From: an uncultured Tateyamaria sp.
Lineage (GTDB): Bacteria; Pseudomonadota; Alphaproteobacteria; Rhodobacterales; Rhodobacteraceae
Length of the DNA stretch: 64,000 nucleotides
Assembly: GCF_947488715.1 (NCBI RefSeq)
Contig: NZ_CANLAG010000002.1
Coordinates: 124,001 to 188,000 of the forward strand
Reading direction: 5' to 3'
In this document: in pieces, positions 6,259 to 51,390 of the stretch
Position numbering within the stretch: the first letter of the stretch is position 1
How the letters are laid out: each line of letters opens with the position of its first letter
The notes under the pieces: model-generated
Databases searched by the model: none
Seen by the model: only the letters and a program-made list of their open reading frames with translations
Told to the model about the DNA's origin: nothing
Position numbers and translations under genes: made by a program

Positions 6259-7947
6259 ATGCCAGCCCCAGAGCGCGCCCTTATCACTCGTCAGATTGAC
6301 CTCGCGGTCACTGCATGTCGTGACGGCTGGCAGGTACTGCGGCATCGCGGTCCAAGCCAGATCCAGTTTTGGTTCATTGCGCTGGCCATTGGTGTAGCTG
6401 CCGGGTTTGCGGCGCTGTTTTTTCGCAAGGGGATCGAGGCGCTGCAAGCGTGGCTTTATGGGACGGACGACGTGCAATATCTGCACAGTTTTGCGTCGTC
6501 CTTGCCTTGGTATCTGATCCTGATCATCCCGATCATCGGGGGGCTGCTGACGGGCCTCATTCTGCACACGTTCACCAAGGATGGCGTCGCCCGTTCGGTG
6601 GCCGATGTCATCGAAGGTGCGGCGATGCGCGATGGGCGGGTGGGGACGCGCGCAGGCGTGGCCTCTGCCTTTGCCAGCTTTATCACGCTGTCATCCGGCG
6701 GCTCGACCGGGCGGGAGGGGCCGGTGGTTCATATCGCGGCGGTGATTTCGACCAAGGTGTGCCGCTGGATCAAGGCCGACGGTATCACGGGACGCGATCT
6801 CTTGGGCTGTGCGGTGGCGGCTGCGGTATCAGCCAGTTTCAACGCGCCCATTGCGGGTGCGCTTTTTGCGCTGGAAGTGGTGTTGCGCCATTTTGCGGTG
6901 CACGCTTTTGCACCGATCGTGATTGCAAGTGTAGCGGGGACAGTCATCAATCGTTTGGAATTTGGCGGCGTGACAGAATTCATGCTGCCAGAGGCCAATG
7001 AGTTGGTATTTTATCAGGAATTGCCAGCCTTTTTGCTGTTGGGCCTGATTAGCGGCCTTGTCGCTGTTGTTCTGATGCGGGCCATTTTCTGGACAGACGA
7101 TGTGGGAACGGCGATCCAGGCGCGCACCGGATTGCCACGGTGGCTGCGGCCAGCAATTGCCGGGGCTTTGCTGGGCGCGCTTGCGATCTTTTATCCGCAT
7201 ATCATCGGTGTCGGCTATGAGACGACGTCGATGGCGCTGACCGGGCAATTGGCATTGAACGACGTGATGGTGTTTGTCGTTCTCAAGACAGCGGCCGTTG
7301 CGATCACCATGGCGGGGCGCATGGGGGGCGGTGTTTTTTCGCCGTCGTTGATGATTGGTGCGCTGACTGGCCTTGGGTTTGGATTGATCGCAACTGGGAT
7401 TTTCCCCGATGTGTCCGGGTCCGTTACGCTTTATGCGCTGGCTGGTATGGGGGCTGTGGCAGCCGCGGTTCTTGGCGCGCCAATTTCGACAACGTTGATT
7501 GTGTTCGAGCTGACCGGGGACTGGCAAACCGGTTTGGCGGTTATGGTGGCGGTTTCCATGTCCACGGCGCTGTCGTCACGGTTGGTGGACCGCAGTTTCT
7601 TTCTCAGCCAGTTGGAGCGGAAAGGCGTGCACTTGGCCGCAGGGCCGCAAGCCTATTTGTTGGCAATGTTCCGGGTCAGTTCGGTGATGCGCAGCCCTGA
7701 CGATCCACGAGCGGCGGATACCGCGCGCAGTTGGGAGATGATTTCAGAGGGCATTTACGTGGACGCCAATGCGACCCTTGAAGCGGCACTGCCCATCTTT
7801 GATCGGACGATGGTGCCGTTTATCCCCGTCGTCACGCTCACGGGCGAGAATGCAGCCCCTGAATTGCAGGGCGCGCTGTTTCATGTGGATGCGCTGAAGG
7901 CTTACAACCGGGCTTTGGCGGCCACAGCCGCGGAAGAGCACAGTTAG
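6259..7947 (+). CDS. ClC-family chloride channel/transporter
   Basis: Integral membrane anion channel or exchanger of the ClC family, 562 aa with about ten or more hydrophobic segments. The gating-glutamate motif SGGSTGREGPVVHI is at about residues 146-159 with GREGP at 151-155. FNAPIAGALFALE and GGVFSPSLMIGA (the GXFXP motif) are also clear. Two positions depart from E. coli ClC. The GSGIP selectivity segment appears as KDGVARSV, and the internal proton glutamate (E203 in E. coli) aligns with Val in ALEVV, as in ClC channels rather than exchangers. The last 100 residues look like a degenerate CBS region. The start is uncertain because no good ribosome site precedes ATG 6259. Confidence 0.88.
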   Translation: MPAPERALITRQIDLAVTACRDGWQVLRHRGPSQIQFWFIALAIGVAAGFAALFFRKGIEALQAWLYGTDDVQYLHSFASSLPWYLILIIPIIGGLLTGLILHTFTKDGVARSVADVIEGAAMRDGRVGTRAGVASAFASFITLSSGGSTGREGPVVHIAAVISTKVCRWIKADGITGRDLLGCAVAAAVSASFNAPIAGALFALEVVLRHFAVHAFAPIVIASVAGTVINRLEFGGVTEFMLPEANELVFYQELPAFLLLGLISGLVAVVLMRAIFWTDDVGTAIQARTGLPRWLRPAIAGALLGALAIFYPHIIGVGYETTSMALTGQLALNDVMVFVVLKTAAVAITMAGRMGGGVFSPSLMIGALTGLGFGLIATGIFPDVSGSVTLYALAGMGAVAAAVLGAPISTTLIVFELTGDWQTGLAVMVAVSMSTALSSRLVDRSFFLSQLERKGVHLAAGPQAYLLAMFRVSSVMRSPDDPRAADTARSWEMISEGIYVDANATLEAALPIFDRTMVPFIPVVTLTGENAAPELQGALFHVDALKAYNRALAATAAEEHS

Positions 7948-8003
7948 GGCGTCGGGTGGCTCTGTTTTGCGCTGACGCGCAAAAGGCGCCCACCCGCCGA
8001 CCC
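7948..8003. repeat. Nested palindromic intergenic element, copy A
   Basis: It begins directly after the ClC stop. The outer arms are GTCGG and CCGAC with GTGG/CCAC inside them. The inner hairpin is TTTTGCGC-TGAC-GCGCAAAA. The 3' side reads GGCGCCCACCC then GCCGACCCA, shared almost exactly with copies B and C. It lies between convergent genes. Confidence 0.8.
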
Positions 8004-8013
8004 ATGGGCGGGG

Positions 8014-8358
8014 TCAGATTTGTTCAACCGCGATCGCGTCACCGACGTAGAACGCAAGGTGGTCCTTGATCCGTGCCACAGCTTCCTTTGGGGCTTCGTA
8101 GCTCCAGACGGAATTTTCCAGTGTTTGTGATTTTGTGACCACCGAGAAATAGCTTGCATCACCCTTGTGTGGGCAATGTGTGCTGCGGTCTGTGCGGTCC
8201 AGAAACGCCATCGCAATGTCTTCGCGCGGGAAATAGATCACTGCGGGATAGTCGCCTTCGGACAATTCCAGCGCATTGGCGCTTTCACCAAGGACGGCCC
8301 CGCCTGCGCGCACCGTCCAGGTGCCGGGGGCTTTGCGGATCGTGATGTGATCAGCCAT
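8014..8358 (-). CDS. DUF427 domain protein
   Basis: Small 114-aa protein of the DUF427 family, a beta-rich fold of unknown function. Recognisable blocks are SEGDYPAVIYFPREDI and HCPHKGDASYFSV, with the conserved His-Cys-Pro-x-Lys-Gly pattern. The start at 8358 (MADHITIRKAPG) is chosen because AGGAGAG lies six bases before it; upstream in-frame codons look non-coding. It is the last gene after the Xaa-Pro aminopeptidase on this strand and probably belongs to that transcript. Confidence 0.85.
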   Translation of the reverse strand: MADHITIRKAPGTWTVRAGGAVLGESANALELSEGDYPAVIYFPREDIAMAFLDRTDRSTHCPHKGDASYFSVVTKSQTLENSVWSYEAPKEAVARIKDHLAFYVGDAIAVEQI

Positions 8359-10270: not shown

Positions 10271-12148
10271 TCAGCCCGCTTTTCTCATGCCCATCACGCG
10301 TGCGCGTGCGCGCGGGTCGCTGTCAAAGAGCGCGGCCAGTTGCTCTGTCATCGCACCGGCCAACTGCTCGACATCCGTGATCGTGACCGCGCGATCATAA
10401 TAGCGCGTGACGTCATGCCCAATGCCGATCGCCAACAATTCGACCATCTTTTTGCGTTCCACCATCGCAATGACATCGCGCAAGTGTTTCTCGAGATAGT
10501 TGGCCGGATTTACGGACAGCGTGCTGTCGTCGACCGGTGCGCCGTCCGATATGACCATCAGGATCTTGCGTGCCTCGGGGCGGGACACCATGCGCCGGTG
10601 CGCCCATTCCAGCGCCTCGCCATCGATGTTTTCCTTGAGCAGCCCTTCTTTCATCATCAGACCCAGATTGGGACGCGCGCGCCGCCATGGGGCATCGGCG
10701 GATTTGTAGATGATATGGCGCAGGTCGTTCAAGCGGCCGGGCTGAGTCGGGCGCCCGTCGTTCAACCATGCCTCGCGGGCGAGGCCACCTTTCCACGCGC
10801 GGGTGGTAAAGCCGAGGATCTCAACCTTGACGTTGCATCGTTCTAGCGTGCGCGCCAGGACATCCGCGCATATGGCCGCGATAGAAATGGGCCGCCCACG
10901 CATGGAACCGGAGTTGTCCAACAGCAGGGTCACGCATGTGTCACGGAATTCAGTGTCTTTTTCGACCTTGAAGGACAGGGGCGTCGTTGGATTGGCCACG
11001 ATGCGGGCCAGCCGCCCGGCGTCAAGCGTGCCTTCCTCTAGGTCAAATTCCCAAGACCGGTTCTGTTGGGCCTGCAAACGGCGTTGCAGCTTGTTCGCCA
11101 GACGGCTGACTGCGCCTTTGAGCGGTTCCAACTGTTGATCCAGATAGGCGCGCAACCGTTCCAATTCGACCGCCTCTGCCAAATCTTCGGCGGCAATCTC
11201 TTCGTCATGGTCACTCAGGTAGACCTGATAATCGGGGTCGGCCTCGGACACCGGTTGTGGGGCAGGCGGCTCTAGGGGCGCTTCGCCCTCCGGCATTTCA
11301 GCCTCTTCGCCCAGTTCCTGATCCGCCATGTCATCCATGCTGACCTGAGCCTGGCTCGCGTCCTGCTGTTCGTCCTGTGAGGATTCGGCGCTTGCGTCTT
11401 CGTTCTCTTGGTCCTGATCGTCCTGGCCTGTGCTGTCGGGTTCCTGGTCCTCTTCCTGACCTTCTTCGGCCTCGTCTTCCTGATCCTCGTCGATCTGATC
11501 CGGGTCATCGCCCAGTTGATCGCCATAGCCCAGGTCGGTGATCACTTGCCGCGCGAATTTGGCAAAGGCTGCTTGATCGTCAAGCATATCGCCCAGACCG
11601 TCGAGCGTGCCGCCCGCTTGTTCCTCGATAAAGCCGCGCCACAGGTTCATTGCGTTCTGCGCACCGTCGGGCAGGTCGCGCCCGGTTGCGAGATGCCGCA
11701 CAAGGTATCCCGCAGCCGCGGCCAGCGGTACATCGATGGCCTGTTTGCACTGTTCATACCCTTTGCGCATCGCCTCATTGGCAATCTTGGCGTCGATGTT
11801 TCCGGCCGTGCCGGGCATGTCGCGCGCGCCCATCGCCTCGCAGCGGGCGGTTTCCATCGCCTCATAGAGGTCTCGAGCCATCTCGCCTTGTGGGGAATAG
11901 CGGGCATGGGTCTGGCCGTTGTGGTAGCGGCGATGCAGCGCCAACGCATCAGCCGTTCCGCGCGCGAGCATCACCTCGTCACGTGTCATACGGCGGCTGA
12001 CCTGCGGCAGGCGCATGGAATCACCCGACACTCCTGCTGGATCGACCGAGTAGGAGACGTTCAACTCAGGGTCATTTGCCATGACCTTGGTGGCCTCAGC
12101 GAGGGCCTTTTTGAACGGATCGGCAGGATTGTCGTTTTGGGTGCTCAT
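10271..12148 (-). CDS. cobT: Aerobic cobaltochelatase subunit CobT
   Basis: Large regulatory subunit of the ATP-dependent CobNST complex, which inserts cobalt into hydrogenobyrinic acid a,c-diamide in aerobic B12 synthesis. The 625-aa protein has an alpha-helical N-terminal part, a strongly acidic Asp/Glu/Gln stretch at about residues 213-295, and a C-terminal von Willebrand A domain with MIDAS motif DNSGSM (D411, S413, S415). The start overlaps the stop of the upstream racemase-like gene (ATGA), implying translational coupling. cobS lies two genes upstream; cobN is not in the window. Confidence 0.95.
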
Positions 12149-16215: not shown

Positions 16216-17400
16216 ATGTGCAGCGCGGATGTGCGGGCCCAATACGAGGCCTATCCTTACCCCGAGCGCAAACCCACGGATGAACGCAAACGGCTGGTGA
16301 CAGGATCGCCGTCGCTGCCCGTGGAGATGGACCATTGGCTTTGGGGGGGCGCGCGCGATTGGTCACAGCCATTGCGGGTGTTGGTTGCGGGCGGTGGCAC
16401 AGGTGATGCGCTGATCCAATTGGCGCAATTGCTGACGGATGCGGGTCGGCCCTATGACATCACCTATCTGGATCTGTCTCAGGCATCGCGCCAGATTGCC
16501 GAGAAACGGGCGAAGGTGCGCAAGCTGGACGGGATCACCTTTGTAACCGGGTCTCTGCTGGATGCAGCCAGTTATGGTCCGTTCGACTACATTGATTGTT
16601 GCGGTGTTCTGCACCATTTGCCCGACCCGCAAGCCGGGTTCGACGCCTTGGCGGCAGCGTTGGCGCCAAACGGTGGCATGGGCATTATGGTCTATGCCCC
16701 GCATGGTCGGTCTGGCGTCTATGCGTTGCAGAATGCATTCGGGCGCTTGTTTGAAGGCCTTGAGCCGCGCCAACGTCTCAAGCGGGCCAAGGCGGTGTAC
16801 AAGGCATTGCCCGATGCGCATCCTTTCAAGCGCAATGTGCGCGTGGTTGATCACGAGCAGGGGGATGCGGGGTTTTACGACCTGCTCTTGCACAGTCAGG
16901 ACCGGCCTTTCAGCATTACGGAATTGTCTAATGCTCTTGAGCGCGCAGGTCTGGAACTGGCGGGTACGCCGGAGCCGATGCTTTATGATCCGACGCCTTT
17001 GGTGGGCGATTGCGGTGCGATGCCCATGTTGGAGCGGATGCAGTTGGCCGAGGATTTGCGAGGCACGTTCAAAACACATGTGGTCTATGCGCGACATGCC
17101 GGTGGTGGTTTGGCACCGCCAATGGGCGCGCCAGATGCTGTACCGCATCTCAGAGGTGTTGACGCCGAGATGTTGGCGGCACATGTAGCCAAGATGGGCA
17201 ACATAGCGATAGACACCGCCGGGTCCGCATTTTCATTTGATGTGACACCGGACGCGGCGACAGTGTTGCGCCGGGTAGACGGGCGCGTGTGCCTTGCAGA
17301 AATTGGTGCGGGTGTGGAGGCGTTTGACGATGTTTGGGCGCAAGTGGAGGCGGCACTGTGTGGTGCCGGTATGATGCACTATTCAAAGATATTGCTGTGA
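16216..17400 (+). CDS. Class I SAM-dependent methyltransferase
   Basis: A 394-aa protein. The Rossmann methyltransferase core has motif I VLVAGGGTGDALIQLAQ at about residues 55-71, the acidic loop TYLDLSQASRQIAE, and FDYIDCCGVLHHLPDP as motif IV. The second half (about 200-394) is a distinct domain of unknown role. The start at 16216 (MCSADVRAQYEAYPYPE) is preceded by GGAGGGAG; the in-frame extension to 16108 runs into the divergent thioesterase gene. Bacterial proteins with this YPYPE-type N terminus are annotated only generally as methyltransferases, so no substrate is proposed. Confidence 0.85.
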   Translation: MCSADVRAQYEAYPYPERKPTDERKRLVTGSPSLPVEMDHWLWGGARDWSQPLRVLVAGGGTGDALIQLAQLLTDAGRPYDITYLDLSQASRQIAEKRAKVRKLDGITFVTGSLLDAASYGPFDYIDCCGVLHHLPDPQAGFDALAAALAPNGGMGIMVYAPHGRSGVYALQNAFGRLFEGLEPRQRLKRAKAVYKALPDAHPFKRNVRVVDHEQGDAGFYDLLLHSQDRPFSITELSNALERAGLELAGTPEPMLYDPTPLVGDCGAMPMLERMQLAEDLRGTFKTHVVYARHAGGGLAPPMGAPDAVPHLRGVDAEMLAAHVAKMGNIAIDTAGSAFSFDVTPDAATVLRRVDGRVCLAEIGAGVEAFDDVWAQVEAALCGAGMMHYSKILL

Positions 17401-17455
17401 CGCGGGACGGACGCTCTTTGCCTGTTGGCAAAGTCGCCCCGCCCGCCGTCCCGCA
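17401..17455. repeat. Nested palindromic intergenic element, copy D (diverged)
   Basis: It fills the gap between the methyltransferase stop and the convergent gatB stop. The outer arms GCGGGACGG (17402-17410) and CCGTCCCGC (17446-17454) pair perfectly. The inner hairpin is CTTTGCC-TGTT-GGCAAAG. The architecture is that of copies A-C, but both sides of each stem carry different bases. Confidence 0.75.
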
Positions 17456-18967
17456 CTAGCTGTTCAGCTTTTTCGCAACGATTTCGTTCACGGCCTTGGG
17501 GTTGGCCTTGCCGCCCGTCGCCTTCATCACCTGACCGACAAACCAACCCGCAAGTTTCGGGTTCTGCTTGGCCTTTTCAACCTGCGCCGGGTTGGCCGCG
17601 ATGATCTCGTCTACCGCCGCCTCGATGGCGCCCGTATCAGTCACCTGTTTCATGCCTTTGGCCTCGACAATCTCAGCCGGATCTCCGCCTTCGGTGTAGA
17701 TGATTTCGAACAGGTCCTTTGCGATTTTCCCGGAAATGTCGCCCTTTGCGATCAGGTCCACGATGCCGCCCAATTGGTCCGGTGACACTGGGCTGTCGGC
17801 AATGTCGCGATCGTCCTTTTTCAGGCGGCCAAACAATTCGTTGATGACCCAGTTCGCCGCCTGTTTGCCATCACGCCCCTGCGCAACCTTTTCAAAGAAG
17901 GTTGCGGTGTCGACTTCGGCTGTGAGCACTGATGCGTCATAGTCGGTCAGCCCAAATTCCGCGATGAACCGTGCCTTTTTGGCGTCGGGCAATTCCGGCA
18001 GGGTGTTTGCGATGTCGTCGACCCAGGCTTGTTCAATCTCCAGGGGGAGCAGGTCGGGATCCGGGAAATAGCGGTAGTCATGTGCCTCTTCCTTGGACCG
18101 CATGGAACGGGTTTCAACCTTGTCTGGATCATACAGACGGGTTTCCTGATCCACAGTCCCGCCAGCCTCGACAATTGCGATTTGGCGGCGCGCTTCGACA
18201 TCGATGGCCTGTTGGATGAACCGCATGGAGTTCATGTTCTTGATTTCGCACCGTGTGCCGAGATGCGAGAAATCCTGTGTTTCCTGATACTTCTCATACT
18301 GACCAGGACGGCAGATGGACACGTTGACGTCCGCTCGCAGGTTGCCGTTTTGCATGTTGCCGTCACAGGTGCCGAGATAGCGCAGGATTTGGCGCAGCTT
18401 CGCGATATATGCGGCCGCTTCTTCGGGGCCACGGATGTCCGGGCGGCTGACGATCTCCATCAGGCAAACGCCTGTACGGTTCAAATCGACAAAGGACATG
18501 TTGGGGTCCATGTCGTGAATGGATTTGCCCGCGTCCTGTTCCATGTGGATGCGTTCGATGCGCACGAGCCGCGCGGTGCCATCCCCCATTTCGACCAGCA
18601 CTTCGCCTTCGCCCACGATGGGATGATAGAGTTGCGAAATCTGGTAGCCTTGCGGCAGGTCGGGATAGAAATAGTTCTTGCGGTCAAAGGCCGAGCGCAG
18701 ATTGATTTCCGCCTTCAGGCCCAGACCCGTGCGCACAGCCTGTTCGACGCAATATCCGTTGATCACGGGCAACATGCCGGGCATGGCCGCGTCGACAAAG
18801 GCGACGTTGGCGTTGGGTTCGTTGCCGAATTGCGTGGATGCGCCAGAGAACAGCTTGGCGTTCGAGCTGACCTGGGCGTGGACTTCCATCCCGATCACCA
18901 GTTCCCAGTCGTGTTTCGCCCCGGCGATCGTTTTGATTTTTGGGGTGTCGTAGGTCAGGTCCAGCAT
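17456..18967 (-). CDS. gatB: Asp-tRNA(Asn)/Glu-tRNA(Gln) amidotransferase subunit B
   Basis: GatB recognises misacylated Glu-tRNA(Gln) or Asp-tRNA(Asn) and activates it for amidation by GatA-derived ammonia. Family landmarks are [12 protein letters not shown] at the N terminus, the signature [17 protein letters not shown] and the [19 protein letters not shown] block. The C-terminal YqeY-like tail domain ends [13 protein letters not shown]. The start at 18967 ([13 protein letters not shown]) gives the normal 503 aa; the in-frame upstream extension looks non-coding. gatA and gatC are not in the window. Confidence 0.97.
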
Positions 18968-38836: not shown

Positions 38837-38900
38837 GTAAAATTCGTTTTGCTTTGTGGGTTATCTGGTCTATTTGTCCCAAAACACTTTCGGAGCAGCC

Positions 38901-40184
38901 ATGGCCCCCATCGAAGATCACCCGCTACGTTACCGGTTGGCCAACGAACTGCATGCGCGTCCGTTTCCATCCATGCAGGCGCCGTGTTCGGCGGCGTATG
39001 TGGCGTTCAAACAGCCGGAAATGGCGGCCAACCGGGACCGTGCGCGCGACGTTGCACACCTGATGGCGCTCTTGGACCGCCATGGTGCGCCACATCCTCA
39101 GCCGGGGGCCACGCATTACTATGGGCAATTGGGTCGCCATTGGCTCAAGTGGGAACAACATACCGAGTTCGTCACTTACACGATCTTTTCGGAGGGTGTT
39201 GAGGACCGCGCGTTTGATGCGCGTGCCTTTGACCCATTCCCGCAGGATTGGCTGGAGGATGCGCCGGGGCAGCGTGTGACGTCTATTCTGATCCGGGTTG
39301 AGCCGCGCCGTAACGCCGAAGAGATGCGTGCGGATTTCCGGGACTGGTTTGTGCCCGAAAGCCTGGCCGTGAGCAGTGTCCTCGAAGGGGCGGCGATCAT
39401 GGGGGGCGATTTCCGCATTGATCAGAACGGTCACATGCGGTTTGCGGTCTTTGCAAGCGAGGGAACGGGCCAGCGCCGGATTGGGCGTATCGTACAGCGT
39501 CTGTGCGAGATCGAGACGTACAAGTCCATGTCGATGCTCGGCTTTGCCCGGGTCCGAGCCATGGGGGCACAGTTGGGTGTTCTGGATACGCGGCTGACCG
39601 AACTGGTTGAGGCGATGTCGGTCGAAGGCTCGAAAGCCGAAGAAACCTTGCAGGCATTGCTGGCAATATCGGCAGAGCTGGAGACGCTTTCAGCGCAGTC
39701 GTCCTTCCGGTTTGGTGCCACATGGGCCTATGAGGCGATCGTCAACGAACGCATCGCGGCCCTACGTGAGGACCGCCATGAGGGGCGTCAGACCTTTGGC
39801 GAGTTTATGGTGCGGCGGTATCAGCCTGCGATGCGCACTGTGCGGTCCGCCCAGGAGCGGTTGGATGCGATGTCAGCGCGCGGTGTGCGGGCCGCCAATC
39901 TCTTGCGGACGCGTGTGGATGTGGAACGGTCCGCGCAAAACCAGGCGCTTTTGGAAAGCATGGACAAACGGTCGGATCTGCAATTGCGCCTTCAGCGCAC
40001 CGTTGAAGGTCTGTCGGTGGTGGCGATCAGTTACTATGCCGTGTCGCTGGTGTCCTACTTGCTTTATCCGCTGGCTGAGAGCACAGGGCTGTCGAAGGGT
40101 CTGTTGACGGCGATAGTGACATTGCCCGTTGTTCTGGCCGTGTGGGGGTTGGTGCGGCGTTTGCGCAAGGAAGTCGACAAGTAG
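38901..40184 (+). CDS. DUF3422 family membrane protein
   Basis: A 427-aa protein of the DUF3422 family, which is widespread in alphaproteobacteria and of unknown function. The conserved N-terminal motif RYRLANELHARPFPSM is plain. The central region is helical (GFARVRAMGAQLGVLDTRLTELVEAM) and two transmembrane segments lie near the C terminus (VVAISYYAVSLVSYLLYPL and LLTAIVTLPVVLAVWGLV). ATG 38901 has GGAG at seven bases; the upstream frame to 38856 is unlikely. The large cytoplasmic part with C-terminal membrane anchor resembles a CorA-like layout, but I infer no transport. Confidence 0.85.
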   Translation: MAPIEDHPLRYRLANELHARPFPSMQAPCSAAYVAFKQPEMAANRDRARDVAHLMALLDRHGAPHPQPGATHYYGQLGRHWLKWEQHTEFVTYTIFSEGVEDRAFDARAFDPFPQDWLEDAPGQRVTSILIRVEPRRNAEEMRADFRDWFVPESLAVSSVLEGAAIMGGDFRIDQNGHMRFAVFASEGTGQRRIGRIVQRLCEIETYKSMSMLGFARVRAMGAQLGVLDTRLTELVEAMSVEGSKAEETLQALLAISAELETLSAQSSFRFGATWAYEAIVNERIAALREDRHEGRQTFGEFMVRRYQPAMRTVRSAQERLDAMSARGVRAANLLRTRVDVERSAQNQALLESMDKRSDLQLRLQRTVEGLSVVAISYYAVSLVSYLLYPLAESTGLSKGLLTAIVTLPVVLAVWGLVRRLRKEVDK

Positions 40185-40188
40185 AGGC

Positions 40189-40240
40189 GTCGGGGTGGAC
40201 TGTTTCGGCTTGCGCCGAAAGGCGCCCACCCGCCGACCCA
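40189..40240. repeat. Nested palindromic intergenic element, copy B
   Basis: It starts four bases after the DUF3422 stop. The outer arms are GTCGG and CCGAC with GTGG/CCAC inside. The inner hairpin is TTTCGGC-TTGC-GCCGAAA. The 3' side is the same GGCGCCCACCC then GCCGACCCA as copy A. It lies between convergent genes. Confidence 0.8.
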
Positions 40241-47496: not shown

Positions 47497-47550
47497 GTCG
47501 GGGCTGGACTGTTTTGGCCTTTGGCCAAAAGGCGCCCACCCACCGACCCA
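47497..47550. repeat. Nested palindromic intergenic element, copy C
   Basis: It begins one base after the M20 gene stop. The outer arms are GTCGG and CCGAC. The inner hairpin is TTTTGGCC-TTT-GGCCAAAA. The 3' side reads GGCGCCCACCC then ACCGACCCA. Unlike the other copies it lies between two genes in the same direction. Confidence 0.8.
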
Positions 47551-50168: not shown

Positions 50169-51335
50169 ATGCCCACCAAAAACCGGTTCGCCGACCTGCA
50201 TGCTGACATAACCGCATGGCGGCGCGACATGCACGAACATCCCGAGATCCTATTTGAAACGCATCGCACCAGCGCGTTGGTCGCAGAGAAGTTGCGGGCC
50301 TTTGGCTGCGATGAGGTTGTCGAGGGGATCGGACGCACTGGTGTCGTGGGCGTGATCAAGGGGTCGTCGGATGCAAGCGGAAAGGTAATTGGTCTGCGCG
50401 CCGATATGGATGCGCTGCCAATTCATGAGCAAACGGGCGTCGCACATGCCTCGAAAACGGCCAATGCGATGCACGCCTGCGGACATGACGGCCACACCGC
50501 GATGTTGCTGGGTGCGGCGCAGTATTTGGCTGAGACGCGGAATTTTGACGGGACGGTGGTGGTGATCTTTCAACCCGCCGAAGAGGGCGGCGGCGGCGGC
50601 CGTGAGATGTGCAATGATGGCATGATGGATCGCTGGGGCATTCAGGAAGTGTACGGGATGCACAACTGGCCCGGACGTCCCGTCGGAGAATTTGCAATTC
50701 GTCCCGGCCCGTTCTTTGCGGCGACTGACCTGTTGGAGATCGAGTTTGAAGGGTTGGGTGGTCACGCGGCCAAACCGCAAGAGACCATCGACACGACATT
50801 GATGGCGTCACATGCCGTCACGGCGTTGCAGTCGATCGTCAGCCGCAATGCCGATCCGATTGACCGGATCGTGGTGTCGATCACGTCGTTCGAGACGTCG
50901 TCCAAAGCTTTTAACGTGATCCCGCAGAAGGTGCAGATCATGGGCACCGTGCGCACAATGAGCGCCGAGATGCGTGATCTGGCTGAAAAACGCGTGGTCG
51001 AGGTTTGTGAAGGCATAGCCACGACCTTTGGCGGGCAGGTGCGTGTGGATTATCAGCGGAACTATCCGGTGATGGTAAACCACGACGAACAGACGGCCTT
51101 TGCTGCGGACGTGGCGCGGTCGGTGTCCGGGCAGTGCGATGAAGCGCCCTTGGTCATGGGGGGCGAGGATTTTGCATTCATGCTCGAAGAGCGGCCCGGC
51201 GCGTATATTCTGGTCGGGAACGGGGACACGGCGATGGTGCACCACCCTGAATATGACTTTAACGATGAGGCCATTCCAGCCGGGTGTTCCTGGTGGGCGG
51301 AAATCGTTGAACAGCGTATGCCCGCGGCGTCCTGA
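50169..51335 (+). CDS. M20 amidohydrolase (hippurate hydrolase-like), second tandem copy
   Basis: A 388-aa paralogue of the upstream gene, starting 28 bases after it. HACGHDGHTAMLLGAA and PAEEGGGGGREMCNDGMMD align without gaps, and GGEDFAFMLEERPGAYILVGNGD matches the C-terminal metal region. Differences concentrate in the lid domain (for example FFAATDLLEIEFEGLGG against LLASADEFEVHVTGKGG), suggesting different side-chain preference. Start at 50169 (MPTKNRFADLHAD); the earlier in-frame extension lies in the upstream gene. Confidence 0.92.
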   Translation: MPTKNRFADLHADITAWRRDMHEHPEILFETHRTSALVAEKLRAFGCDEVVEGIGRTGVVGVIKGSSDASGKVIGLRADMDALPIHEQTGVAHASKTANAMHACGHDGHTAMLLGAAQYLAETRNFDGTVVVIFQPAEEGGGGGREMCNDGMMDRWGIQEVYGMHNWPGRPVGEFAIRPGPFFAATDLLEIEFEGLGGHAAKPQETIDTTLMASHAVTALQSIVSRNADPIDRIVVSITSFETSSKAFNVIPQKVQIMGTVRTMSAEMRDLAEKRVVEVCEGIATTFGGQVRVDYQRNYPVMVNHDEQTAFAADVARSVSGQCDEAPLVMGGEDFAFMLEERPGAYILVGNGDTAMVHHPEYDFNDEAIPAGCSWWAEIVEQRMPAAS

Positions 51336-51390
51336 CGTCGGCTGACGCTCCTGCGCCCTGAGGGGCGCAGATCGCCCCACCCATCGTCCC
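51336..51390. repeat. Nested palindromic intergenic element, copy E (diverged)
   Basis: It fills the gap between convergent stop codons. The inner hairpin CTGCGCCC-TGAG-GGGCGCAG is perfect. The 3' side CGCCCCACCC-ATCGTCCC follows the family pattern. Outer pairing is weaker: GACG with CGTC and GG with CC. Confidence 0.65.

Follow-up and report, generated by a model that had tools for sequence, protein, structure and literature searches.

Five nested palindromes stand directly behind stop codons in the 64,000-nucleotide stretch of Tateyamaria DNA analysed here (the window), and they raise the question of what, if anything, in the cell reads them. The earlier note that recognised them took them for copies of a single plan, starting 0-4 nt past a stop codon and mostly lying between convergent genes, and offered three functions: two-way transcription end signals, protectors of RNA 3' ends, or REP-like mobile elements. 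All five are present at the coordinates given there, all fold, and they form one family. Their distances from the plus-strand stop codons are 0, 4, 1, 0 and 0 nt (A, B, C, D and E), and four of the five are in convergent gaps (A, B, D and E), with element C placed between two plus-strand genes. The common plan stands as far as the nested fold is concerned, but the five divide into two subfamilies, A, B and C on one side and D and E on the other. They are given below with their neighbouring genes, which were called with a simple codon-based gene finder (as were those of unannotated genomes); the E-values come from the covariance model described further on and are rough.

6259..7947, plus strand: gene upstream of A, voltage-gated chloride channel family (PF00654)
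7948..8003, plus strand: element A, type 1; E 1.5e-11
8014..8358, minus strand: gene facing A, DUF427 protein (PF04248)
16216..17400, plus strand: gene upstream of D, methyltransferase domain
17401..17455, plus strand: element D, type 2; inner stem CTTTGCC/GGCAAAG; right arm CGCCCCGCCCGCCGTCCC; E 1.6e-4
17456..18967, minus strand: gene facing D, GatB-type amidotransferase subunit
38856..40184, plus strand: gene upstream of B, DUF3422 protein
40189..40240, plus strand: element B, type 1; inner stem TTTCGGC/GCCGAAA; right arm GGCGCCCACCCGCCGACCC; E 1.4e-10
47497..47550, plus strand: element C, type 1; inner stem TTTTGGCC/GGCCAAAA; codirectional gene pair; E 8.1e-9
50169..51335, plus strand: gene upstream of E, M20 peptidase
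51336..51390, plus strand: element E, type 2; inner stem CTGCGCCC/GGGCGCAG; right arm CGCCCCACCCATCGTCCC; E 3.6e-4

The left arm of element A reads GTCGG-GTGG and then CTCTG, its inner stem is TTTTGCGC/GCGCAAAA with the loop TGAC, and its right arm is GGCGCCCACCCGCCGACCC, as in B. Elements D and E each make up the entire gap between facing stop codons. In the related genome G003, element E has an ortholog, and the gap orthologous to that of C holds, instead of an element, a plain hairpin at the same stop codon. The G003 gap orthologous to D (L247, ∼11941-12091) lacks D and contains other palindromic repeats, GGTTGGGCAATATGCCAACC and GGTGGGCATATTGCCCACC, in its place. A scan of the window against Rfam 15 returned no family above the gathering threshold.

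The covariance-model search that the earlier note had suggested yields further copies, biased to gene 3' ends, in the host genome and in its relatives. In the host genome (4.13 Mb in 24 contigs), a 19-base right-arm pattern allowing up to three mismatches has 28 forward and 11 reverse matches, compared with 5 and 6 for the reversed pattern used as a control, and a whole element is present at 24 of the 30 right-arm matches inspected. A covariance model seeded with 26 copies (these 24 together with D and E) recovers 40 copies in the host genome at E ≤ 1; of these, 36 pass E ≤ 0.01 and 33 pass E < 4e-4. Subtypes were assigned with a purpose-made pattern in a set of 74 elements from three genomes, namely the host genome (G000, 40 elements), G003 (13) and G006 (21). 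Type 1, CTGTTT...AAAGGCGCCCRCCCRCCGACCC, is that of A, B and C and accounts for 48 of the 74; type 2, GACGCT...GCCCCRCCCRCCGTCCC, is that of D and E and accounts for 20; type 3, CTCTTTGC...GCAAATTCGCCCACCC, is found elsewhere and accounts for the other 6. In G003, three type-3 elements head a longer repeat of ∼250-340 bp (L125 ∼2498, equal to C1:797498; C1:813767; L128, equal to C1:963606), which has no Rfam match and whose tail contains the inverted repeat CCCTCGCCTGATCTT...AAGATCAGGCGAGGG.

The element is a nested hairpin of ∼55 nt. On the strand of B, the outer left arm is approximately GTCGG-GTGG, followed by CTCTG or GACTG; then come an inner stem of 5-11 bp (4 bp in two forced fits among the 74), which mostly begins with T-A pairs, a loop usually 3-5 nt long and, in type 1, AAAGGCGCCCRCCCRCCGACCC. 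The stem-base sequences of type 1 are constant, CTGTTT on one side and AAAGGCGCCC on the other, while the length of the stem varies from 5 to 11 bp. Across the whole structure of the 26 copies, 42 cells are changed on both sides of a pair, against 17.4 in shuffles (0 of 500 shuffles as high); two of the five covariation measures, the counts of changing pairs and of pair types, are not above shuffles. The outer helices are paired in 69% and 74% of cells and the inner helix in 92%. Conservation of the right arm is partly built into this alignment, because the seed copies were picked by their right arm. The copies at site A were found through the neighbouring gene and are therefore free of this bias: the ten copies there have 16 double-change cells against 7.8 in shuffles (0 of 500 as high), with a pair-type measure that does not stand out from shuffles, and their inner stem is 100% paired with GC/UA and CG/GC exchanges. 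The right arm at site A is kept in sequence as well as in pairing.

The two strands of the element fold differently. The reverse strand has the more stable fold in 69 of the 74 elements with DNA parameters (by a mean of 2.9 kcal/mol) and in 53 of 74 with RNA parameters; in element-free convergent gaps the tendency is the opposite, the plus strand being more stable in 19 and the reverse strand in 8 of 28. Inner stems are almost purely Watson-Crick, and none of the 14 inner-stem mismatches is a G-T on the plus strand. A-C mismatches on the plus strand (G-T when read on the reverse strand) are more frequent than plus-strand G-T, with 20 against 7 in alignment A3 and 6 against 3 in A4, two alignments that have one row's element in common. 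The reverse strand of the right arm carries G-runs of 3-2-3-3 with short spacers in 72 of the 74 elements (G000, G003 and G006); this is compatible with a G-quadruplex on the leading-strand template, and the covariance model itself selects for G-runs.

All 40 host elements lie within 15 nt of a gene stop codon or overlap the stop, by model edges and our own gene calls. Twenty-eight are convergent, 7 lie between plus-strand genes (sense), 5 lie between minus-strand genes and none is divergent, in sampled host DNA in which 118 of 765 gaps are convergent. The five between minus-strand genes are antisense to the gene they abut, that is, at the end of a lagging-strand gene. With 7 sense elements to 5 antisense ones, orientation is independent of the gene. 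The median length of the convergent gaps that carry an element is 64 nt, so that the element is often the whole gap. A second collection of 56 named loci was obtained with a strict pattern; it comprises 40 from Tateyamaria and others from Tropicibacter, Roseobacter, Mameliella, Shimia, Pseudoponticoccus and Albimonas, and partly overlaps the genomes of the larger tally given below. Thirty of these loci are convergent, 10 and 7 unidirectional and 1 divergent, 5 were scored inside an ORF by the codon-based gene calls, and 3 lack a gene on one side. Directly at stop codons of at least two species there is also a second palindrome, TGATCTGTCCCCGCGGGGACAG or a close form of it (G006 L218 and L207; G003 L125 ∼2412).

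The central result is the orientation of the elements relative to replication, a property absent from the earlier reading. In the host genome, each contig carries elements on one strand only, and all 33 neighbouring pairs are on the same strand. Across 331 elements in 50 genomes, 168 of the 172 same-contig neighbouring pairs among the matches listed share a strand. This tally pools thresholds (E ≤ 1 for the host genome, and 0.1, 0.01 and 0.001), leaves out the rows of genomes already counted and nine rows of G010 on contigs that are also uniform, and includes related genomes that are non-independent, with orthologous sites counted once per genome. The four opposite pairs, each at least 617 kb apart, fit replichore switches. 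On contig C1 of G003 (3.86 Mb), the strand flips between 0.96 and 1.74 Mb, the sampled GC skew changes sign at 1.32-1.45 Mb and dnaA is at 3.25 Mb; five elements are on the plus strand in the positive-skew arm and eight on the minus strand in the negative-skew arm. The flip on G011:C1 runs across dnaA, where the skew on the element strand is weak (+0.007 and +0.009); that on G164:C1 coincides with the skew sign, and that on G001:C1 occurs, with the skew sign, at a weak match (E 0.054), the plus-strand copies being L172 and L173. On the dnaA contigs that carry elements, all 23 copies are on the leading strand for their side of the origin (G003 13, G004 5, G011 4, G001 1). It is the C-rich arm that lies on the inferred leading strand, also where the element is antisense to the gene.

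The sign of the GC skew extends this pattern to contigs of other genomes. Skew on the element strand is positive at 55 of the 56 named loci (the remaining one is at -0.001). It is also positive in each of 20 stretches taken from four other genera and in each of another 13 stretches, weakly so in three of the 13 (+0.007 to +0.009). In the host genome, it is positive in 25 of the 28 element-holding 20-kb stretches and negative in the other three (-0.002, -0.029 and -0.041). Gene strand bias was ruled out as the source of this polarity: the coding strand is close to 50:50 in sampled host DNA (374 kb plus and 393 kb minus), and 5 of the 40 elements are antisense. A by-product of base composition was likewise ruled out, as weak right-arm matches that lack the structure are not polar (1 plus and 4 minus, on contigs C2-C4). 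The leading strand is G-rich and the conserved arm C-rich, and polarity for this reason does not come from base composition. By itself, polarity could arise from insertion into one template strand or from orientation-dependent instability.

Copies are also unevenly placed along the replichores. In G003, 12 of the 13 elements, spread over the two arms, stand 361-602 kb away from the terminus, whose position (1.375 Mb) was set manually from sampled GC skew. A band as tight as this is clear in G003 alone and is not general, because the host genome has copies farther toward the origin: copies on host contig C1 seem to match more origin-proximal parts of G003 (C1:569082 matches G003 at 2.83 Mb). 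Four dnaA contigs together have one element less than 400 kb from dnaA, compared with 10.0 expected from genome averages, and four terminus contigs have one element less than 200 kb from a dif-like or skew-inferred terminus point, compared with 6.0 expected.

Of the patterns used for dif, one of the E. coli type had no match, and a looser one found a dif-like site, approximately TATAATCCANATTATGTNAA, in the host genome (G000:C2:667157-667178), G004 (C2:1333374) and G016 (C1:537699). The looser pattern found nothing in G001, G003 and G011, and its matches in G006 and G007 are probably due to chance. The site is in line with the sign of the GC skew where host contig C2 ends and resembles, by eye, the R. 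sphaeroides dif printed in PMC2731167; it may be the place at which chromosome dimers are resolved in this genus. As a separate observation, one element site is located ∼2-3 kb away from a gene that weakly matches DnaA in G001, G003 (C1:877095), G004, G006, G007, G011 and G016, among the matches listed; this gene perhaps encodes an Hda-like protein.

The family is widespread within the genus and patchy beyond it. All 18 genomes drawn from the genus contain copies, and counts run from 8 to 36 per genome at E ≤ 0.01 in the 19 members of the genus searched. A match is present in 32 of 247 sampled genera of the family, the genus itself included, or 31 of 246 outside it; absence from the other genera of the family rests on a strict filter (E ≤ 0.001). 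In other families of the class, none of 12 genera has a match at E ≤ 0.01. Searches of plasmid and phage records gave no match to element A at E ≤ 0.01, and viral contigs gave none to the exact type-1 pattern. One record, JAFKDC010000008.1, is titled Enemella evansiae TN21-6 and contains an element (L189). Enemella is an actinobacterial name, but the record appears to correspond to contig G032:C8, from a genome assigned to the same family as the window, and it looks as if the title is wrong or the assembly contaminated.

Elements are held at the same sites in different species. In G003, 12 of 13 elements have the same neighbouring gene or genes as a host element, and in G006 this is true of 18 of the 21 examined among 31; the ortholog is the best match in 5 of these 12 and 14 of these 18. 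At the remaining orthologous sites, the element has diverged or a different one, in some cases of another subtype, has taken its place, with orientation unchanged. Site A was traced in 20 same-genus genomes through the chloride channel gene (PF00654): it is filled in ten, empty in nine and undecidable in one. Six of the filled sites have the same two neighbours and four have another downstream gene, the copy in G010 being degenerate. In the nine empty sites, the stop codons of the two genes abut or overlap, both genes having been matched by tblastn in G003 and by inspection in the other eight. On the tree of the neighbouring gene, the occupancy of site A needs one change (0 of 500 shuffles are as low). 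Species with an empty site group together and, with the tree rooted at its midpoint, the deepest branches belong to species with a filled site, so that one loss is the simplest reading. Single copies are dispensable, as the empty site A in nine species and other empty sites seen in G003 show. Two copies at non-orthologous sites of G006 are identical in 54 of 54 bases, and such identical or near-identical copies indicate that copying or conversion within a genome also happens. By this comparison, the elements are old landmarks of the chromosome that are largely inherited vertically.

Several explanations of these observations have to be weighed. Placement at stop codons, in 28 of 40 cases between convergent genes, would suit an RNA 3'-end element, either a two-way transcription end or an mRNA-protecting hairpin for convergent genes, as the earlier note proposed; the gene-3'-end bias on which this rests was found, but an orientation that follows replication (5 of 40 antisense) is left unexplained unless polarity comes from some interaction with replication, for example the stopping of transcripts head-on to the fork. 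The short element-bearing convergent gaps (median 64 nt) leave little space for another terminator, G003 lacks C yet has the plain hairpin at the same stop codon, and the strand transcribed by head-on genes is the one that folds better (69 of 74 with DNA and 53 of 74 with RNA parameters). A T-run follows the right arm in 7 of 40 host elements, 1 of 13 in G003 and 3 of 21 in G006; the host figure exceeds the 9 of 211 for control stop codons, and a minority of copies may terminate in the plus reading. The earlier note's statement that no T run follows is correct for the other 33 host elements in that reading and for all 40 in the minus reading. Most elements are not intrinsic terminators, because T-runs are rare, and they are one-sided as well; ordinary terminators exist elsewhere in the genome, and several other host convergent gaps hold ones of the A-stem-T kind. 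Intrinsic terminators are GC-rich hairpins at gene ends, as here, but their usual order is A-stem-T, whereas the inner stem here is flanked by T and then A, the reverse. Further points against an RNA element are the lack of a head-on neighbour at 7 of 40 sites and of a codirectional one at 5 of 40, the empty site A in nine species, which by inspection is too tight for any terminator, and the count of 0 in 14 for plus-strand G-T among inner-stem mismatches. An RNA element also struggles with the strictness of the polarity or with the conserved arm, and we regard it as unlikely.

Mutation without function could also produce polarity, if the palindrome were tolerated in one orientation only and lost where its better-folding strand became the exposed lagging-strand template, and if template switching corrected quasi-palindromes and so kept the stems perfect. 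Template-switch correction leaves near-perfect Watson-Crick stems, which is what the inner stems resemble. The reverse strand, which as the elements are oriented is not the lagging-strand template, is the more stable one in 69 of 74 (mean 2.9 kcal/mol), and element-free convergent gaps lean the other way (19 to 8, of 28). Hairpin stability as a driver of deletion is discussed in the available part of PMC3733652. However, the energy difference is small for a polarity that, among the matches listed, has no unexplained exception in 172 neighbouring pairs, the right arm of site A is kept in sequence beyond what pairing requires, and the scarcity near dnaA is left unexplained; such a filter is decidedly improbable. 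A different history would make the polarity an insertion scar: an old REP-like repeat would once have multiplied through a single-strand process confined to one of the template strands at the fork, and its copies would now be inherited and act at most as gene-end hairpins. Consistent with this are an anatomy like that of CGTC-tagged REPs (a short stem mostly starting with T-A pairs, a short loop, reverse-strand CGCC or CGTC on the 5' side of the inner stem, and a location at gene ends), the G006 copies that agree in 54 of 54 bases although their sites are not orthologous, and the replacement of subtypes at orthologous sites, which is expected of REP-like repeats; insertion into the lagging-strand template is described for IS200/IS605 elements in the accessible text of PMC6006769. 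The Y1/RAYT transposase (PF01797), however, is over the cut-off in none of nine genomes, with one sub-threshold match in G003, while the control was found in 5 of 14 genomes, and a RAYT-driven REP was rejected on this ground. Copies are few and never dimeric (the closest are 2,485 bp apart), no match to element A was found in plasmids or phages nor one to the exact type-1 pattern in viral contigs, and site A is held in ten species with covariation, a conservation that a scar does not need. The REP-like mobile element of the earlier note is thus the nearest known anatomy, but active mobility is unsupported, given the transposase result, the vertical inheritance and the lack of plasmid, phage and viral matches; an insertion scar remains a serious but doubtful candidate.

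The reading we prefer, tentatively and at somewhat less than an even chance, is that the elements are folded, polar DNA landmarks predicted to be read by the replication machinery or by a protein that moves with it. Orientation tracks replication and not the gene, which suggests that a functional reading would be made on DNA and during replication, or by another machine moving in the direction of the replichore. A stem of 5-11 bp with fixed sequences at its base makes it probable that the recognised form would be a folded strand or a cruciform and not the linear duplex, because a protein bound to duplex DNA would meet variable spacing. The most likely action would be a one-way effect on the replication fork or on a fork-borne protein, such as pausing or a boundary resembling a fork trap. 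Location at gene ends would keep the site off promoters and reading frames and, in convergent gaps, off through-transcription. It is conceivable, although on balance improbable, that the Rhodobacteraceae carry a dispersed polar replication system independent of Tus and RTP, in which hairpins on one strand per replichore would fold as the fork passes and act one way (pausing, trapping or marking) through a putative reader protein.

Gene-end hairpins that share a direction relative to replication suggest that the cell reads hairpins while its chromosome is replicated. If the polarity is functional, it points to a common marine family having a new system of replication or segregation; if it is an insertion scar, the elements, for which no transposase is known, preserve a record of single-strand transposition at forks. 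No prior description of the hairpin family came up in searches of open-licence papers.

Known polar chromosome motifs are either short sequences (KOPS, chi) or dependent on dedicated proteins (Tus, RTP). Ter sites have one orientation per replichore, flank the terminus region and are lacking near the origin. The elements likewise have one orientation per replichore (13 of 13 in G003, and the neighbouring pairs elsewhere), flank the terminus region and are scarce near the origin. In contrast with Tus-Ter and RTP sites, on which the fork traps covered in the available part of PMC10331603 rely, they are nested hairpins of variable stem length, and neither Tus (PF05472; control found in E. coli) nor RTP (PF02334; control found in B. 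subtilis) was found in any of nine genomes. KOPS and AIMS, as far as the accessible portions of PMC5993296 and PMC4786541 describe them, are octamer motifs present in large numbers that rise toward the terminus. The leading-strand bias on both arms is common to both, but the present elements are folded, ∼55 nt long, number tens per genome, become rarer near the dif-like site (1 against 6.0 expected) and place a C-rich rather than a G-rich arm on the leading strand. The BoxC/TM intrastrand triplex motif is, like the elements, a G/C-rich intergenic structured repeat; its 23 copies in E. coli MG1655 are 13 plus and 10 minus in the available part of PMC4666352, and it differs in having no strand bias and in its consensus. 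Terminus-enriched DNA in vesicles of Dinoroseobacter is reported in PMC7901474, the available text of which mentions no such repeat.

In anatomy, the comparison leads to the CGTC-tagged REPs of Di Nocera et al. 2013 (PMC3733652). According to the available part of that paper, these are palindromic, extragenic and mainly alpha-proteobacterial, have a stem of 8-9 bp starting with A-T, a short loop and the tail CCA, occur mostly as head-head dimers (REPs in general measuring 20-40 bp), prefer convergent or unidirectional gene ends and have no dedicated transposase. The present elements are similarly palindromic and extragenic, with a stem that in most copies starts with T-A, a short loop and a 3-nt tail; they lie at gene ends (28 convergent, 12 unidirectional and 0 divergent), in genomes without a Y1 transposase over the cut-off (nine genomes). 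They differ in being nested and ∼55 nt long with stems of 5-11 bp and the tail CAG, in occurring as singletons kilobases apart, in being held at orthologous sites and in being replication-polar. Among the 74 elements, the tag 5' of the inner stem on the reverse strand is CGCC in 45, CGTC in 9, TGTC in 2 and another sequence in 18, so that the CGTC tag is in the minority; the inner stem is 8 or 9 bp in 29, with most stems beginning with T-A pairs, and the tail is CAG in 57 and GAG in 10, in place of CCA. Spacing in the host genome (closest 2,485 bp, median 25.6 kb) leaves no dimers of the CGTC-REP kind. The words 'rhodobacter' and 'leading strand' are absent from the main text of PMC3733652, and its available part does not ascribe to REPs a strict replication polarity like that of the structured intergenic repeat studied here. 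Taken together, the closest known counterparts of the elements are the CGTC-tagged REPs in anatomy and, as it seems from these comparisons, the Ter or KOPS sites in polarity.
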